A stretch of 55,467 bases of DNA from Microbacteriaceae bacterium (GTDB taxonomy: Bacteria > Actinomycetota > Actinomycetes > Actinomycetales > Microbacteriaceae). Positions 13,954 to 25,970 of the stretch are shown in pieces; position 1 is the stretch's first letter, and each line of letters begins with the position of its first letter. Location: positions 1-55,467 of the forward strand of contig CANCKM010000003.1 in the NCBI GenBank assembly GCA_947378555.1, written 5' to 3'. The notes beneath the pieces were generated by a model. That model made no database searches. It worked only from the letters and a program-made list of their open reading frames with translations, and was not told where the DNA came from. A program made the position numbers and the translations under genes.

Positions 13954-14084
13954 CGGTTTTTTTGCATCTTTCACTAACCCTGAGGATATCTCGGGACAAA
14001 CGTGCAAAAACATCTCTAGAATTAGTACTTGTGCGCAACTTATTAAGATAGTTGCCCTAGTCTTTGCCGAGGGGTGAATCTCCA

Positions 14085-15851: not shown

Positions 15852-15884
15852 CGCTCTTGAGAGGGCACGATTTCGCTCTTGAGA
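15852..15884. repeat. Exact 11-bp direct repeat CGCTCTTGAGA, 22-bp period
   Basis: CGCTCTTGAGA at 15852-15862 and 15874-15884, each followed by RRGCA, in the intergenic region upstream of GH6. Confidence 0.7.
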
Positions 15885-17029: not shown

Positions 17030-18016
17030 ATGAACTATTCAGCCGAGGAACCGCGTGTAGCGGTAATCATTGAAGACGAAGATGACATTCGCGATTTGCT
17101 CGAGGTAATTCTCGTGCAGGCAGGCTTTCACACGATTGCCACCAAGTCGGGTATCGAGGGAATCATGGCCGTTAAGGAACATTCTCCGCTCATAACCACA
17201 CTTGATGTGAGCATGCCTGGAATGGACGGCTTTGAAGTAGCAAAGCGAATTAGATCATTCAGCTCGAGCTACATTTTCATGCTGACCGCTCGCGATGAAG
17301 AGATTGACACCATCCAAGGCTTAGAAGCCGGTGCCGATGATTACATCACTAAGCCATTCCGACCTCGCGAACTTCGTGCGCGAATCGATGCCGTTCTGCG
17401 ACGTCCTGTGTCGATGAAGCTAACCAATGGCTTCCGCGAACTGCGTTCGGATGACGCATCGTCTGACACCAGAGTGCTCGAGCGCTTGGATGCACGTGGC
17501 CCGAGCACAACCGCCACTATGACGCCTGCCGAAATGGACGCTGTTGCTAGCCGCTCAAACATTCAGAAATCCGATCAACTAGCCGCCCCGGCCCGTGCCG
17601 CGGCGCGACCAGCCAGTGCAGCCGCACCAAAGCCAACTGTGGCCGCGGCCCCAACCCCACCGGTTGCCGCCCCGACCGAAGCCGGCGAGAACTGGTTGAC
17701 GCACAATGGTCTTCGCTTGATGCCTTCAATGCGTCTTGTTGAGGTAGACGACGTTGAGATCGATTTGACGCGAACCGAGTTTGACCTTCTAGCTTCACTG
17801 ATCGAGTCAAACCGTCGTGTTCGCAGCAAGGCCGACCTAGCGCTTTTGCTTCGTGGCGAAAGCTACGTCACCGCGTACTTTGTGAACGAGTCTGACAAAC
17901 GCGCTGTAGAGACCCACATCAGCAACCTGCGTCGTAAGCTCGGAGACGGCCTCAACACTCCTCGTTGGATTGAAACCGTCCGTGGCGTTGGATACCGTTT
18001 GGCTCCAGCCCAGTAG
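17030..18016 (+). CDS. OmpR-family response regulator (REC, long Ala/Pro linker, winged helix)
   Basis: REC: VIIEDEDDIRDLL, TTLDVSMPGMDGFE, LTARDE, TKPFRPRELRARI; C-terminal wHTH: LTRTEFDLLASLIES...VETHISNLRRKLGDG...IETVRGVGYRL. Confidence 0.95.
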   Translation: MNYSAEEPRVAVIIEDEDDIRDLLEVILVQAGFHTIATKSGIEGIMAVKEHSPLITTLDVSMPGMDGFEVAKRIRSFSSSYIFMLTARDEEIDTIQGLEAGADDYITKPFRPRELRARIDAVLRRPVSMKLTNGFRELRSDDASSDTRVLERLDARGPSTTATMTPAEMDAVASRSNIQKSDQLAAPARAAARPASAAAPKPTVAAAPTPPVAAPTEAGENWLTHNGLRLMPSMRLVEVDDVEIDLTRTEFDLLASLIESNRRVRSKADLALLLRGESYVTAYFVNESDKRAVETHISNLRRKLGDGLNTPRWIETVRGVGYRLAPAQ

Positions 18017-18025
18017 TAGGTGTTT

Positions 18026-18062
18026 AAAAACCGGTCAGGCAATCAGCCTGACCGGTTTTTTT
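18026..18062 (+). terminator. Rho-independent terminator of the response regulator gene
   Basis: AAAAACCGGTCAGGC-AATCA-GCCTGACCGGTTTTTTT. Confidence 0.93.
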
Positions 18063-18176
18063 ATGTCCTGATTTGGGCTTGAGTGCACGGCATTTTAGAG
18101 GGCGTTGATTCTTCTTTGCAATCGTGATGGGCCTTGCCGCCACAGCGTCGCGACTTCACAGGGAGTCCTCAGGCAC

Positions 18177-18211
18177 AAAAAAACACGGACCCCAGAGGGG
18201 ACCGTGTTTTT
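18177..18211 (-). terminator. Rho-independent terminator of the minus-strand GT2 gene (near-symmetric, possibly bidirectional)
   Basis: AAAAAACACGGACCCC-AGA-GGGGACCGTGTTTTT, one internal mismatch, immediately 3' of the minus-strand CDS stop. Confidence 0.88.
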
Positions 18212-18224
18212 GGGTGAAAGCTGT

Positions 18225-19670
18225 TTAGACGCGGAAGCCTCGGTGAGACTTCAACACTCTGCGGAGCATGAATAGGGTCTGAACTGCGGCGGTCCAACCT
18301 AGGATTGGCCAACCGATGTCCAAGATAAGGGTCTGGGTCTTGAGGGACAACTGGGTCCAGAGCAACGCTAGTGCCGCAAAGAAAACCACGGTTCCAACTA
18401 GTGGGCTGAGGAACGCGTTTCCTGACCCACCCTCAGCCTTTGCCTGTTCGGCCCAGCTGTCGGTCTGTGAGTTCTTGGCGAATCGGCCCCAGGCGCGAAC
18501 AAAGTGGCCCATGCGAACCCACATGTAAATCTCAGGGAGAAATACTGAGTAGGCGTAGCCTAGGTCGCGCCAGGTGCGAGCCTTCATCGACATTGCAGTC
18601 TTAATGTTCAGGACTGTTGCAACGAATGGTGGGATCAGCCAGATTGGTGAGAAGACGAAGGTCTTGTTCGAAAGAGCACCTGCGAGAAGCAGAACGAACA
18701 AGAGGCGTGTGATTACGTTTACCAACATCGAAACGTTCTCAGTCCAACGCAAACGAAGGTTCGGGTGGAATGGCATACCCTTAGTGTCGCCTCGCTGACC
18801 AGGCCACATGAGCTCAATCGCTCCAGCGTTCCACTTGACCTGCTGAGCGTCAAGACCACGAAGGCTTGTCATACCGCCCACGAATGCTCGGGAAGTCGCG
18901 CTGATCTTGGTAAGGAATCCGGCGTTCTTGATTTGCAATGACAACAGTGAGTCTTCAACTTCGCTGTCACGAACCCAAGGTGAGTTCTGTCGGTTTTCGG
19001 CCATAACTTCGCGCAGAGCCTTGATCGAGAAGATTGAGTACTGACCACCGAGTACGGCCATGTTGCGACCGCGGAGCATGTTCTGCATGTTGAAGGCGGC
19101 GAACTGTGCGCGCTGACCAGAAATCAGGAAGTTCTCAAGCGGGCCGGATCGCTTGGCGTCGTCGATGGTGTAAATCGCCGAGATGCCGCCGATGCGGGAG
19201 TCCGAAGCAATTTCAGCTTCTAGCAACTCGATTGCATTTGGCTGAGCGGTCGTGTCGCCGTCAACACCAAGCATGTAGTCGCAGGCCTCAACGAGCGAGA
19301 AGCCGTAGTTTAGGGCTCCAACCTTTTTGTCCGGGTTGCGACCGATGTCGTGCACGAAAATCTGTGTGTTTTGGGTTACGCCGTCCCAGGTGCGGGAGTG
19401 TGAGCCAGCGAAGTGGCTTGCAACCTTGGCAGTGTTGTCAGTGGTGTTGTTGACGACAACGTGAATGACGTCTGGCAGGCGAGTCTGGCTCAAAAGTGAG
19501 TCGAGCACCTCGCCGATTGAATCCGCCTCGTTGTAGGCCGGGATTACACAGCCAATCGAGGAACGCATGGTTGGAAGCTCATCAATCATGTCGTGGAAAG
19601 TGTCGTCAAACGCCGACTGTACAGGCGTGGCCTTGGAAGGGCCTCGGAAATTTTTGTCGTTTTTATTCAT
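18225..19670 (-). CDS. Family 2 processive glycosyltransferase (second, divergent GT2)
   Basis: GCVIPAYNEADSIGEVLDSLL, GVDGDTT (DxD), SEVEDSLLSLQIKNAG (ED), QQVKWNAG (QxxKW in place of QxxRW), C-terminal TM segments. Confidence 0.88.
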   Translation of the reverse strand: MNKNDKNFRGPSKATPVQSAFDDTFHDMIDELPTMRSSIGCVIPAYNEADSIGEVLDSLLSQTRLPDVIHVVVNNTTDNTAKVASHFAGSHSRTWDGVTQNTQIFVHDIGRNPDKKVGALNYGFSLVEACDYMLGVDGDTTAQPNAIELLEAEIASDSRIGGISAIYTIDDAKRSGPLENFLISGQRAQFAAFNMQNMLRGRNMAVLGGQYSIFSIKALREVMAENRQNSPWVRDSEVEDSLLSLQIKNAGFLTKISATSRAFVGGMTSLRGLDAQQVKWNAGAIELMWPGQRGDTKGMPFHPNLRLRWTENVSMLVNVITRLLFVLLLAGALSNKTFVFSPIWLIPPFVATVLNIKTAMSMKARTWRDLGYAYSVFLPEIYMWVRMGHFVRAWGRFAKNSQTDSWAEQAKAEGGSGNAFLSPLVGTVVFFAALALLWTQLSLKTQTLILDIGWPILGWTAAVQTLFMLRRVLKSHRGFRV

Positions 19671-19706
19671 AAAATCAATGCTTCCAGACGATTCACAGCG
19701 AATACT

Positions 19707-19754
19707 AGGTTTTTCCTGAGGTTTTCCATAAGTTTTTCCCAGAGATTTTGACCG
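19707..19754. promoter_or_regulatory. 12-bp-phased direct repeat array (AGGTTTTTCC type) between divergent genes
   Basis: Units begin at 19707 AGGTTTTTCCTG, 19719 AGGTTTTCCATA, 19731 AGTTTTTCCCAG, 19743 AGATTTTGACCG. They abut a minus-strand -10 (TAGTAT, 19707-19702). Confidence 0.6.
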
Positions 19755-19837
19755 TTTTTGCTGCTAAGTGCCATCGCGATAGAGTGGTACAGGTTTTTGC
19801 ATTTGAAATCGACGAATTTTTCCTTATCGGAGGCGCA

Positions 19838-20428
19838 ATGTCAGGTTCACGGATCCCAGTTTACGTCCGACTCATAGCCCTAGTCTCGCTCGCATCACTG
19901 GCCTTGGTCGGCTGCACAACACTGGGCGTTTCAGGTCTCAAGGACCTCACCAAAACCGGTGAGTTGTCAGCAAATCTCAAAAACGACCTTCGTTCGGGTT
20001 CGGCGGTTCACAAACTCATTGCCGGTGACGCGAAACTGACCGTCACCTACTGGTCGACGCTTCGAATGGACAAATGGAAAGCCGGAATCAGCAAGCCACT
20101 GACCTTCTCAATTGCGGGAGTCGCGGCCCATGGCTCAAAGAGAAACGTGTTTCTAAAACAGGCATCGATGGACACCGTGGTTTACGGCCCGTTCGGAACG
20201 ATTGAGTCGCCTCAGCTCAGGAGCGATACCAGTTCTGTAAAGCCCGGCTACTTGATCACCAGGCCTTACAGCTACAGCCAGGTTTTTCAGATTCCACCAA
20301 TCGACAAAACGGCCACCAGTGTGACTTTGAGTTTTGCCTTTGAAGTGCTGATCGAAACCGGTGTTGGTACCGGCAAGTACGTCAAACAAACCACCAACGA
20401 TCAGATTACGGTCGCTATAACGCAGTGA
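19838..20428 (+). CDS. Putative lipoprotein of unknown family (196 aa)
   Basis: ATG 19838 after GGAGG; MSGSRIPVYVRLIALVSLASLALVGCTT has a clear lipobox (LVGC). No recognised domain in the rest. Confidence 0.75.
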   Translation: MSGSRIPVYVRLIALVSLASLALVGCTTLGVSGLKDLTKTGELSANLKNDLRSGSAVHKLIAGDAKLTVTYWSTLRMDKWKAGISKPLTFSIAGVAAHGSKRNVFLKQASMDTVVYGPFGTIESPQLRSDTSSVKPGYLITRPYSYSQVFQIPPIDKTATSVTLSFAFEVLIETGVGTGKYVKQTTNDQITVAITQ

Positions 20429-20458: not shown

Positions 20459-22228
20459 GTGAAAGCAATGTGGGGGCGTAAACCCGGCGATTTTCGAGCT
20501 AGTCGCTTTGCCACGCCACGGGCTGATTCCAACTCCGGTCACACCAACGAAAGGCATCTGACCTTTTCGCAGGAAACCGACGTTTCACCGCTGACTCGTC
20601 AGTTGCCAATCACAATAAGCGTCGCAGTGTCAGCGCTTCTCACCTTTGTTCTGACGCCACAGGTCTTCAACGATAATTTCTTTTTCGTTGGGGTAATCGT
20701 GATTTTTGTCGCCGCGGGTGTGGCCTCCCTCGAACCCGTTTCGCCGTCTCCAAAGCTGCTAATCCTGCTGCCAATGTCTGACATTTTGGGAATAGCGCTC
20801 ATGAGCTCCCACGACGGCGGAAGTGTTTATACCCTTCTGTTCTTCATTCCCATCAGCTGGATGTCATCGCTGGCATCTTTCAGAGCATCCATGCTACTCG
20901 CCGCTAGCCCCCTCGTTTTTCTAGTCTCTCTCGCTTGGGCGCATGGCAAACCGCTGAATCAGGCGGAGATTACAAATTTTGCTCTTGTTTCAGCAGTGCT
21001 CATCGTTGTCGCTTCCGTTTCAAATCAGAGTGCGAAAAAGGTTAATGCTCGAAATGTTCTTATGCGGGGGCAACTTGAGTTGCTTGACGAGGTTTTGCTT
21101 CGAGAACGTCGACAGCAGGAACTCTTGGACGTCGTTCTAAATTCCGTGGATGTCGCCATCTTGCGAGTAGACAAGACCGGCAAGACCATTTTCTCTAATG
21201 CCGCTCATAGGCGACTAGTGAACCACTTCGGGGTGATTCCAGAAATGGAGGTGCCACCTCAGCTTTTCAAGAGCGATGGAGTCACCGAGTATGAGACTGA
21301 CGAGCGCCCCTACCACCGGGCGCTAAGCGGGGATCGCCTGGAGCGTGAAGTGGCGTGGATTGGTGATGGAACCAAGCCGCAGATGGCGATTTTGCTCAAC
21401 GTTCTAGGCTTCGTGGACGAAAACAGTAATCCAGACGGTGGCATCGTGGTGGCAACGGACATTACCGATGAGATGACTTCTATTCAGAGCCGCGAAGACC
21501 TCATGACTTCAATTTCTCATGAAATACGTAACCCGCTCACAGCGGTTCTTGGTTTTCTAGATTTGGCTCTGGATGACGACACGCTTTCCGCTGGCACCAG
21601 AAAACAACTTGAAATTGCAACTTTTAACTCAGAACGCATCATGAAGCTCATCGAAGGGTTGCTGGTTCGGGTCGAAGACGACAGGCGCTTAGGTCTTGCA
21701 AAGCTAGATTGGCACAATCTATCCGAGGTGCTCATTCACGCAGTAGAAGACATCGCCCCTTCGGCAGCGCAACGAAATATCGATATCGAGTTGGCCGACG
21801 TCGATCCGCTGTTCATGAAGGTAGATCCAATCAGGATTCGTCAGGTATTCGACAACCTTTTATCCAACGCGGTCAAGTACAACAAGGACAACGGTTCGAT
21901 TCGAGTGACGGTAAATGTCACACGACCGACCCAATCGGCTGGGCAGGTTCCGACGTCATCGGTTGAGGTCAGGGTTACCGATAGCGGCATGGGAATAGCA
22001 GAGGCGGAACAGGTGAATCTGTTCAAGCGTTTCTATCGAGCCAAGTCCGTCCGAGGAACGAGCATTCACGGAACGGGACTTGGCCTGAGTATTAGCCGGG
22101 AAATCATGCGACTGCACGGCGGTGACTTGCATCTCGAGTCGGTTGGCGGTCGAGGAACCAGCGCCGTGTGTCGTTTTCAGGTGACCAATCCAAGCGCTAA
22201 TCTGTTTACTAAGATGCCAACAGCGTAA
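20459..22228 (+). CDS. Membrane sensor histidine kinase (N-terminal TM segments, PAS-like region, HisKA, HATPase)
   Basis: SISHEIRNPLTAVLGFLDLA (H-box), FDNLLSNAVKYNKDNGSI (N-box), VTDSGMGI, FKRFYRAK, GTGLGLSISREIMRLHGG. Exact start uncertain (20459 or 20468). Confidence 0.92.
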   Translation: MKAMWGRKPGDFRASRFATPRADSNSGHTNERHLTFSQETDVSPLTRQLPITISVAVSALLTFVLTPQVFNDNFFFVGVIVIFVAAGVASLEPVSPSPKLLILLPMSDILGIALMSSHDGGSVYTLLFFIPISWMSSLASFRASMLLAASPLVFLVSLAWAHGKPLNQAEITNFALVSAVLIVVASVSNQSAKKVNARNVLMRGQLELLDEVLLRERRQQELLDVVLNSVDVAILRVDKTGKTIFSNAAHRRLVNHFGVIPEMEVPPQLFKSDGVTEYETDERPYHRALSGDRLEREVAWIGDGTKPQMAILLNVLGFVDENSNPDGGIVVATDITDEMTSIQSREDLMTSISHEIRNPLTAVLGFLDLALDDDTLSAGTRKQLEIATFNSERIMKLIEGLLVRVEDDRRLGLAKLDWHNLSEVLIHAVEDIAPSAAQRNIDIELADVDPLFMKVDPIRIRQVFDNLLSNAVKYNKDNGSIRVTVNVTRPTQSAGQVPTSSVEVRVTDSGMGIAEAEQVNLFKRFYRAKSVRGTSIHGTGLGLSISREIMRLHGGDLHLESVGGRGTSAVCRFQVTNPSANLFTKMPTA

Positions 22229-22240
22229 AGGGGCTAAATC

Positions 22241-23398
22241 ATGTCTATTGCTTTACCAACAATCGAGACCGTTCAGTTGCTCAGGGGAGTGGCCATCGTT
22301 GCCGCCGGTGCCCTAGTGATCGGTGCAAATGCGCTTGCCAAGTCGAGACCATCGGCTAAGTATTGGAATTCCAGTTTGGTTTTGGTTTTTGGTCTCTGGA
22401 CCGCACAGAATTTTGGTTTCCTCGGGGTTGGTAACGCAAATTTGGGCAGCGTAGTTTCGTTGACCTTCGCCATTCTGGCGACCGGTTCGGTTTGGTTGGG
22501 TTTTCGCACCGAAAACTCCAAATCGGCTCCGGTTGGTCGAGTCCTGGCGCTCGCAGGCATTTCCGCCCTCATTTTAGTTTTGGGTCTGATTTTTCCCATA
22601 CTTGAGAGCCCGGTCTTCGCATTGCTTGCGGTTGCTATTCTTGCCGCGCTAGCTGGCAGGGAGTCTTTTCAAGGCCTAATGAAAAGCAATTTTTATGGCC
22701 GGGCCCTAGGGTTTGTAATGATTGTGACCAGCGCGCTGACATTGGCGCTCTTGGTTAGCTTTGCCCTGAACCTCCGCGCTGTCTTGGATACTTTTGAATC
22801 CGACTCCGGAATGGTTGCGGCCGTAAGCCAGCCCGTTGTCCTGAGCGTCACGGGTGCGCTCGGGCTGATTTCAATCATTTCGATTGCCTGCCTCGTTTCG
22901 AATGCCAACCCACTCAAGGCCCAGAAGCCAGCTACCCGAGGCGGCCTCGTGCTCAACCGTGAAGATTTTCTGCACCTCGCAAAAGACCAGCTTGGCAGGG
23001 CAGAACAACTGGAAACCGGCATGGCCTTGCTCTCGGTGCAGGTAAAAAACATCAGGGAAATAAACGAGGTATTCGGCAGATCCGCGGGGGATTCAACCCT
23101 CGAAGATTGCACCGTTGCCATGCGCAAGGTGCTGCCAGCAACCGCGCTTCTCGGCAGGGGCGACAAAGGGCATTTCCAAGTGCTTTCGGTGACCGACTGC
23201 CTCGACTCCACGAAGCTTCTCGAAAACAAATTGCGAAGCGCAATTTCCGAACTCGTCAGTGAAGAGGCTGGAGGCATTCGGCTTTCGGCAGATTTCGCGT
23301 TCGCCGACACCCGTGTCGATCGATACGATATCGGCTTCCTGGCTGAGAAATCGGACGCGCGCCTGATGGACTCGGTTGAGGAATCCAGGATCGTTTAG
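22241..23398 (+). CDS. Multi-TM protein with degenerate GGDEF-like domain
   Basis: Several hydrophobic helices, then LLSVQVKNIREINEVFGRSAGDSTLEDCTVAMRKVL...LLGRGDKGHFQVLS, aligning with a GGDEF fold but DKGHF in place of GGDEF. Confidence 0.7.
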   Translation: MSIALPTIETVQLLRGVAIVAAGALVIGANALAKSRPSAKYWNSSLVLVFGLWTAQNFGFLGVGNANLGSVVSLTFAILATGSVWLGFRTENSKSAPVGRVLALAGISALILVLGLIFPILESPVFALLAVAILAALAGRESFQGLMKSNFYGRALGFVMIVTSALTLALLVSFALNLRAVLDTFESDSGMVAAVSQPVVLSVTGALGLISIISIACLVSNANPLKAQKPATRGGLVLNREDFLHLAKDQLGRAEQLETGMALLSVQVKNIREINEVFGRSAGDSTLEDCTVAMRKVLPATALLGRGDKGHFQVLSVTDCLDSTKLLENKLRSAISELVSEEAGGIRLSADFAFADTRVDRYDIGFLAEKSDARLMDSVEESRIV

Positions 23399-24128: not shown

Positions 24129-24569
24129 ATGGATAACGGTGTCGATTCTTCGAGCGACGTTCAGACCACCCAAAGGTTTCCTGAGGATTTAGTTGCGGAT
24201 CAGGTTTCGCAACTGTCGCCTGAGGAACAGTCTGCGATTAATGCCTTGCCAAGCGGTTCGGCCCTGTTGATAGTGACTCGTGGTGGCGACCTTGGTTCGC
24301 GTTTTTTGCTTGACCAAGACGTCACAACTGTTGGCCGCCATCCCAACGCCGACATATTCTTAGACGATGTCACGGTTTCTCGCCGGCACGCAGAGTTTCA
24401 CAGACATGGAACCGCTTTTGAACTTCGAGATCTGGCATCTTTGAACGGCACTTATTTCGACGGAGTTCGAATCGATACCGCGATGCTTGAAAATGGCGCA
24501 GAGGTTCAGATCGGCAAGTTCCGCCTAGCTTTTTTTGCTTCTCGTCACGACATCCCAAAGGCCGTTTAG
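24129..24569 (+). CDS. FHA-domain protein, GarA/OdhI-like
   Basis: TTVGRHPNADIFLDDVTVSRRHAEFHRHG...DLASLNGTYFDGVRI; N-terminal VQTTQRF resembles the phosphorylatable ETTS motif of GarA/OdhI; followed by a MerR gene. Confidence 0.88.
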   Translation: MDNGVDSSSDVQTTQRFPEDLVADQVSQLSPEEQSAINALPSGSALLIVTRGGDLGSRFLLDQDVTTVGRHPNADIFLDDVTVSRRHAEFHRHGTAFELRDLASLNGTYFDGVRIDTAMLENGAEVQIGKFRLAFFASRHDIPKAV

Positions 24570-24572
24570 TCG

Positions 24573-25274
24573 ATGGGAACATCTGTCGCGCCGCAATTTT
24601 TTAACTCTAGGTCTTCCAAGTTATTCACCATCGGTCAAGTTCTCACCAGACTTGAAGAGGCGTTCCCGGACTTAACCCCGTCCAAGCTTCGGTTCTTCGA
24701 AGATCAGGGACTGGTGCATCCGCAGCGGACAAGTTCCGGGTACCGAAAATTCACCGAGCAAGACATTGATCGGGTTCGGGTGATTTTGGAATTGCAGCGC
24801 GACCGGTATTGGCCTCTAAAAGTTATCGGCTCCTACCTGTCTGATCTAGATGCCGGGCTTACCCCCGAGCTTCCCGGTGCAGCGACCGAGACTCAAAAAT
24901 TTTTGCTCGGTAGGGGCAATCGTTTGAGCGTTGTCGAACTAATGGCAGAGACTGCCATTTCTGATTCTCTGCTAAGCGAGGCCCAAGAAATGTCGATCCT
25001 AGGTCAGCATCCCTTTGATGCCGCCCAGGTCGAAATAGCCAGGGCTCTGGTTCAGCTTCAACGTTTCGGAATCGCTCCGAGGCACCTTCGAGGGGTAAAG
25101 GCTTCTGCCGATCGGGAGATTGGCATCATCGAGGGTGTCATAGCGCCAGTTTTAGCCAAATCCGATTCGGCCAGTCGCTCAAGAGCCGCACACTACGCAC
25201 TTGAGATTCAAAGCCATTTTGCGACAATCCAATCTGAGCTGGTTCGGTCAGTAATTTCCAAGATTGACTCCTGA
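24573..25274 (+). CDS. MerR family transcriptional regulator (FtsR/Rv1828-like)
   Basis: LFTIGQVLTRLEEAFPDLTPSKLRFFEDQGLVHPQRTSSGYRKFTEQDIDRVRVIL; context downstream of the FHA gene. Confidence 0.88.
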   Translation: MGTSVAPQFFNSRSSKLFTIGQVLTRLEEAFPDLTPSKLRFFEDQGLVHPQRTSSGYRKFTEQDIDRVRVILELQRDRYWPLKVIGSYLSDLDAGLTPELPGAATETQKFLLGRGNRLSVVELMAETAISDSLLSEAQEMSILGQHPFDAAQVEIARALVQLQRFGIAPRHLRGVKASADREIGIIEGVIAPVLAKSDSASRSRAAHYALEIQSHFATIQSELVRSVISKIDS

Positions 25275-25421
25275 GTCCTATTCTTTAGTTAACTAGGCGG
25301 CTGCAAAAGTCCGTGTTTTCTAGAGAAATTAACCGCGACACGCCGAATGCGTCGGGTAACGGCGGATAACCGGCAAAGCGCACAACAATTAAACCTGAGG
25401 TTGAACCTGAAAGGAGCCGAG

Positions 25422-25970
25422 ATGTCACAAACTGAATCCGGCGACCCGGTTGAATACTCCCAAGACATGCTCTTTACCGATGGTCTGCCATCGCTCGACC
25501 CAAAGGTCGGCTATCGCGGTACAGCGGCTGCTTCGGCGGTTGGAATCAGCTATCGCCAACTCGATTATTGGGATCGAACCGGTTTAGTTCAGCCAAGCGT
25601 TCGCGGTGCCGCCGGTTCTGGTTCGCAGCGGCTTTATTCCTTCAGAGACATCTTGGTTCTAAAGCTCGTGAAGCGATTGCTTGACACCGGAGTTTCCCTG
25701 CAGCAAATCAGAACCGCCGTTGAGCAGCTGCGAATCTCAGGAATCAACGATTTGGCAAGAATCACGCTCATGTCAGACGGTTCCAGGGTTTATCTCTGCA
25801 CGACTCAAGACGAGGTCATTGACTTGTTGGGCCGCGGCCAAGGCGTGTTCGGAATCGCAGTTGGTCGAGTTCTCGCCGAAGTCGAAGCCAGCCTCATTAA
25901 CATTCACGCCAGTTCGGTCGATGACGTCGATGAACTTTCGGCCCGCAGACTCAACCGCAAAGCGGTTTAG
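25422..25970 (+). CDS. MerR family transcriptional regulator (Rv1830-like)
   Basis: GYRGTAAASAVGISYRQLDYWDRTGLVQPSVRGAAGSGSQRLYSFRDILVLKLVKRLLDTGVSLQQIRTAV; start ATG 25422 after AAGGAG. Confidence 0.88.
   Translation: MSQTESGDPVEYSQDMLFTDGLPSLDPKVGYRGTAAASAVGISYRQLDYWDRTGLVQPSVRGAAGSGSQRLYSFRDILVLKLVKRLLDTGVSLQQIRTAVEQLRISGINDLARITLMSDGSRVYLCTTQDEVIDLLGRGQGVFGIAVGRVLAEVEASLINIHASSVDDVDELSARRLNRKAV

Follow-up and report, generated by a model that had tools for sequence, protein, structure and literature searches.

Gene content and distribution of the cluster

The window, that is, the whole stretch of 55,467 nucleotides of Microbacteriaceae DNA that was analyzed, carries an exopolysaccharide-type gene cluster with the following members:

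from 14064: cellulose-synthase-like glycosyltransferase
from 15964: GH6 glycoside hydrolase
17030–18016, plus strand: OmpR/PhoB-family response regulator, the presumed binder (Pfam Response_reg, 1.8e-25; Trans_reg_C, 2e-18)
18225–19670, minus strand: GT2 glycosyltransferase, the presumed target (Pfam Glycos_transf_2)
ORF from 19748, likely start at 19839: short probable lipoprotein
20459–22228, plus strand: histidine kinase, a possible partner of the regulator (Pfam HisKA, HATPase_c)

The regulator and GT2 genes are convergent; strong hairpins with T-runs, resembling terminators, can be made out by eye at two places between them (18028–18064 and 18176–18213). The cluster also includes, next to the kinase gene, that of a GGDEF-domain protein (22241–23398, plus strand), which may not make c-di-GMP because its signature motif appears degenerate, with GRGDKGHFQ in place of the expected GGDEF. 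Further along, an FHA-domain-like protein is followed by two MerR-family regulators (24129–25970, plus strand), an arrangement that we take to be reminiscent of the OdhI/GarA–FtsR neighbourhood.

Among 80 loci encoding the GT2 gene in bacteria of the Microbacteriaceae/Nocardioides type, some of them cut by contig ends, the gene is accompanied in its cluster by the regulator (72 loci), GH6 (61), the lipoprotein (51), and the kinase (47). Within the genus, the GT2 gene and the regulator gene are each present in 1 of 67 genomes, the one analyzed here; many of the 67 are incomplete, and both genes are missing from all 22 good ones. Given that the two are missing from the same 66 genomes, gene and regulator come and go together, and their restriction to this genome within the genus may reflect either horizontal gain or sole retention. 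A search for a closer relative with the GT2 gene, covering 67 genomes from the genus and 400 from the family, gave 70% identity at best, in other genera; short-range footprinting was precluded because no close relative has the gene.

The repeat array upstream of the GT2 gene

The 168-bp intergenic region upstream of the GT2 gene (19671–19838) contains a repeat array at 19701–19765, in which the sequence-only reading had recognized four units:

unit 1, start 19707: AGGTTTTTCC
unit 2, start 19719: AGGTTTTCCA
unit 3, start 19731: AGTTTTTCCC
unit 4, start 19743: AGATTTTGAC

All four starts agree with the sequence, as does a T-run claimed to continue the series at 19755 (19755–19759). The array had also been called exact, which it is not, because the whole AGGTTTTTCC is found once only, the other units varying by single bases or in the length of the A-run. 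The self-similarity at period 12, with 44 of 60 pairwise identities among the four units, is the highest in the whole window for this period. Among 5,000 dinucleotide-shuffled versions of the intergenic region, in which the best of periods 9 to 14 averaged 27, not one attained 44 at any of these periods, and scores of at least 42 at period 12 occur at 12 places of the 1.5-Mb genome, most of the others listed resembling, by appearance only, codon-type repeats. The four-unit array is thus real and beyond chance. Elsewhere in the same genome, a search for ACCTNNGGAAAAACCT returned mismatched copies only (27 matches vs. 16 in the control).

A direct repeat conserved upstream of orthologous GT2 genes

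Orthologous GT2 intergenic regions, in which the sequence-only reading had proposed to check the repeat phase, carry an 11-bp direct repeat at the same place. A sequence near TCTTGAG-N4-TCTTGAG (11-bp register, at least 11 of 14 matches) lies upstream of GT2 in 59 of the 80 loci. At 12 or more matches of 14 and 11-bp spacing, 54 hits were obtained in all flanks on both strands, 49 of which are located no more than 350 bp upstream of GT2, in 44 of the 80 loci; strict hits upstream of GT2 at other spacings number three at 10 bp and two at 12 bp. In a second set of 17 whole-genome loci, which overlaps the first in part (several species had already been used), the best upstream pair beats everything else on its strand in every case (17/17), and the position in orthologous promoters is therefore conserved in both sets. 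Many of the relatives' GT2 promoters have extra, weaker units in phase, such as the five in Agreia; in Herbiconiux the half-site reads CTTAAG, and in GC-rich relatives the half-sites are kept without A-tracts. No array identical to that of the window was found in the relatives, and a search covering part of the literature yielded no description of this motif or regulator.

Across 12 genomes, sites with at most one mismatch number zero to three per genome, in most cases with the GT2 promoter among them. Additional sites, TCTTGAGGTGTTCCTGAG and TCTTGAGGGTTGCTTGAG, are shared by several genomes of Plantibacter (L304, L305, L306, and L133) and Nocardioides (L307 and L308); no gene clearly lies downstream of the one conserved in Plantibacter L133, and a box in Agromyces (L126) is not an obvious promoter site, sitting as it does between convergent genes. 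In another Plantibacter locus (L123:829–1518), a perfect TCTTGAG-N4-TCTTGAG precedes genes encoding proteins with SipW-type signal peptides (TIGR04089), a class including matrix proteins; no such site was detected at one mismatch or fewer in three other Plantibacter genomes.

Position and register of the array

A half-site matrix was derived solely from the relatives, the window array never being included, and run at 11-bp spacing. On the minus strand of the window it finds the pair AAACTTATGG (19735–19726) and AAACCTCAGG (19724–19715), with a score of 9.7–9.8 that is attained by 5 of about 110,000 positions of the window, by 88 of 3.0 million positions of the genome (few of them intergenic by a crude ORF call), and in 9 of 2,000 shuffles of the intergenic region. 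This is weak, since nearly all good relatives score 19–31 vs. 9.8 here. With the half-sites found by the matrix as anchors, the array resolves into four units, all on the minus strand:

19738–19747, unit A: AATCTCTGGG, a weak outer half-site 12 bp from B, with a low matrix score alone
19726–19735, half-site B: AAACTTATGG, first (upstream) member of the core pair, 6.8 bits by the relatives' matrix
19715–19724, half-site C: AAACCTCAGG, second (downstream) member of the core pair, 11 bp from B
19703–19712, unit D: AAACCTAGTA, weak, overlapping the proposed −10

Aligned to the relatives' motif, the T positions are 19745, 19733, 19722, and 19710, that is, steps of 12, 11, and 12 bp, and the central pair B and C therefore stands in the usual 11-bp register. 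The 12-bp phasing proposed from the sequence thus holds for the outer steps, A–B and C–D, but not for the central one. Of the head-to-tail repeats of 6–8-bp half-sites at 10–11 bp expected for an OmpR/PhoB-family operator, the relatives show the 11-bp form, which in the window is represented by the core pair only. The conserved unit of the array is ACTTATGG/ACCTCAGG, the equivalent of TCTTGAG(G/C), with the A-run merely a linker; AGGTTTTTCC corresponds to the reverse complement of this linker (GGAAAAA) plus the beginning of the next half-site (ACCT). A further element, AGGTTTTTGC, is present at 19791, 84 bp off, as had been noted, but is probably coincidental as a candidate unit because it contains no half-site scoring above 2 with the relatives' matrix. 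Unit B lies 63 bp from the GT2 start, a distance equal to that of box 1 in L028, the relative most similar by sequence identity, and unit A lies 75 bp from it, near the 74 bp of Agreia and several Cryobacterium loci. The array looks like a weakened local copy of a putative switch present upstream of GT2 in dozens of related bacteria.

Boxes at the other units of the cluster

Similar sequences precede two further units of the cluster:

13965–13996, plus strand: a series of three box-like half-sites, spaced 11 bp, in front of the gene at 14064 (cellulose-synthase-like; pair scores 9.5 and 8.9)
15853–15884, plus strand: exact TCTTGAG at 15855 and again at 15877, a step of 22 bp, in front of GH6 and the regulator (matrix score 15.7)

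The T positions of the first group are 13967, 13978, and 13989, and its score was attained in 12 of 1,500 shuffles. For the second, only 3 of 3.0 million genome positions and 2 of 1,500 shuffles score as high, at a 22-bp spacing that was added to the 11-bp one after the sequence had been seen; in relatives, the threshold applied revealed no boxes upstream of GH6. Across the genome, a score of at least 8 at 11 bp is reached by 18 intergenic positions, three of which belong to this cluster: one is in the GT2 promoter, and the others are overlapping pairs in front of the cellulose-synthase-like gene. Because similar boxes precede the cellulose-synthase-like gene and the GH6–regulator unit, all of the exopolysaccharide-type cluster is probably under the control of one regulator. 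A regulon extending beyond it cannot be claimed, as matches to TCTTGAG-N4-TCTTGAG with up to three mismatches in this genome are near the control level (143 vs. 113 hits), and the best are mostly within genes.

The response regulator and the GT2 promoter

The product of the gene at 17030–18016 combines the receiver and winged-helix (Trans_reg_C) domains expected of a cognate regulator: receiver at residues 12–119, a linker of about 120 residues with an Ala/Pro-rich stretch, and winged helix at 243–324. Its DNA-binding domain mostly shares 60–79% identity with its counterparts in the relatives and has a conserved recognition helix (DKRAVETHISNLRRKL in the window, DKRAVEAHMGNLRRKL in Cryobacterium breve). 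Among the equivalog matches listed, none attains its cut-off, the nearest models being MtrA, which has the best E-value (161 vs. a cut-off of 300), and PhoB. As a PmrA (BasR) orthologue the regulator was rejected, with 103 bits for NF007928 against a cut-off of 330.

For the GT2 promoter, the earlier reading had pointed to the following element:

19702–19707, minus strand: TAGTAT, a possible −10 of the GT2 gene

Both this hexamer (19707–19702) and a poor TATGGA at the −35 position, 17 bp away, are present as described, and a consensus scan found no full sigma-70 promoter for GT2. Of 45 deduplicated upstream regions from the relatives, 36 have a CAGACT/CAGAGT-like hexamer downstream of the first box, at distances of 61–62 bp (29 regions), 50–51 bp (4), 40 bp (2), and 73 bp (1); this hexamer is a candidate −10. 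Such steps of about 11 bp are expected if the regulator needs a fixed face relative to RNA polymerase. TAGTAT is 2–3 bp off this phase, and the window array is about 35 bp closer to it than the relatives' boxes are to their hexamer; TAGTAT may nevertheless serve as the −10 of GT2.

Comparison with known boxes

As a predicted operator, the array belongs to a known kind of switch, of which the PhoP, ArcA, and PmrA boxes are examples. The PhoP box of Mycobacterium tuberculosis is a direct repeat of 7-bp TCACAGC motifs with a 4-bp spacer, for which affinity increases with three or four repeats and decreases strongly if the spacer is off by one base (PMC4832192). It shares with the box described here the 7-bp motif plus 4-bp spacer (11-bp register), an OmpR/PhoB-family binder (presumed here), and an actinobacterial host, but the motif is another one, and two of the three steps in the window are one base longer, whereas PhoP is strict on 4 bp. 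If the PhoP spacer rule applies, little contribution is expected from A and D, given their 12-bp steps; the long linker might, speculatively, make the rule less strict.

ArcA sites of Escherichia coli are built from degenerate repeats, two to five in number, that lie on the same face of the helix at a spacing of 11 or 22 bp (PMC3798270), and thus provide a precedent for the 22-bp pair at 15853–15884 and for multi-unit arrays. However, the ArcA motif is different, and ArcA is a global regulator, whereas the box described here hardly occurs outside one cluster in the genomes examined. The half-site of the PmrA box, CTTAAG-N5-NTTAAT in type (TCTTAATATTATCCTAAGC; PMC3973317), is nearly identical to that found here (CTTGAG, or the Herbiconiux variant) and is likewise arranged head to tail in an 11-bp register; the regulator here is, by contrast, not PmrA by the curated model, and its presumed target is a polysaccharide cluster. 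Finally, in a model of the initiation complex, the −35 region accommodates a PhoB dimer alongside sigma (PMC3348028). The layout proposed for the window resembles the pho box in that tandem repeats would replace the −35 just upstream of the −10, while the strong boxes of the relatives, unlike this layout, stand 50–62 bp before the hexamer.

A predicted operator of the adjacent regulator

The sequence-only reading regarded the tandem repeats upstream of GT2 as the operator of the neighbouring OmpR/PhoB-family regulator, a prediction that, with unit and phase corrected, is largely supported by the 11-bp repeat of the relatives, the matrix match, and the linked regulator. We consider it likely, albeit well short of certain, that the array is the operator of the 17030–18016 regulator, with B and C bound over the −35 and GT2 activated from TAGTAT. 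The kinase encoded at 20459 would phosphorylate the regulator, whose dimers would then occupy half-sites B and C of the minus strand, spaced 11 bp, in a head-to-tail arrangement and possibly extend to unit A, 12 bp off. The bound protein, which we infer to be this regulator, would overlap the missing −35 and help RNA polymerase to start GT2 from TAGTAT, and the same regulator would control the whole exopolysaccharide-type cluster. Points against this reading are the poor half-sites, the two 12-bp steps, the phase of TAGTAT, and the overlap of D with the −10.

The last of these makes repression possible. Bound at C and D, the same regulator would cover the spacer and the −10 and block RNA polymerase at GT2, in keeping with an array that abuts TAGTAT and with the location of strong boxes further upstream in relatives, hence a different geometry here. 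We regard this as unlikely, given that D is low-scoring and 12 bp from C, that a poor −35 is what an activated promoter is expected to have, and that in relatives the box and the hexamer are separated by helical steps suited to contact with RNA polymerase; the array probably activates the GT2 promoter rather than repressing it.

Very unlikely, in our view, is a decayed operator, that is, a relic in a reduced genome that now binds poorly and leaves GT2 constitutive. The core pair retains its 11-bp register and upstream position, boxes also occur at the other two promoters of the cluster, and the 12-bp self-similarity is above what decay would leave, although degenerate half-sites, two 12-bp steps, the lack of an identical array in relatives, and the sporadic occurrence of GT2 in the genus would all be compatible with it. 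Least probable of all is that the array is no operator but helically phased A/T-tracts acting as curved DNA, an UP element, or a product of slippage, with a chance likeness to the box: A-tracts of 4–5 bases do recur at 11–12 bp, and the probability of the matrix match arising by chance, taken by itself, is about 0.5% (9/2,000 shuffles), but half-sites lack A-tracts in GC-rich relatives, the match falls at the predicted place and spacing, and boxes recur within the cluster.

An operator bound by the adjacent regulator thus remains the reading we favour. A broader proposal, possible though doubtful, is that an undescribed, cluster-specific actinobacterial system recognizing TCTTGAG-N4-TCTTGAG governs this polysaccharide cluster from Microbacteriaceae to Nocardioides and here acts on a 12-11-12 array, tolerating 12-bp steps, perhaps, to speculate, by virtue of the regulator's long linker.

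Implications

The locus offers a testable regulator–operator pair that would be conserved across at least two actinobacterial families, together with a concrete motif for a two-component system that has yet to be characterised and is likely to control a surface polysaccharide. With its 12-bp steps on either side of an 11-bp core, the array would also provide a natural test of how strictly OmpR-family regulators depend on 11-bp spacing.
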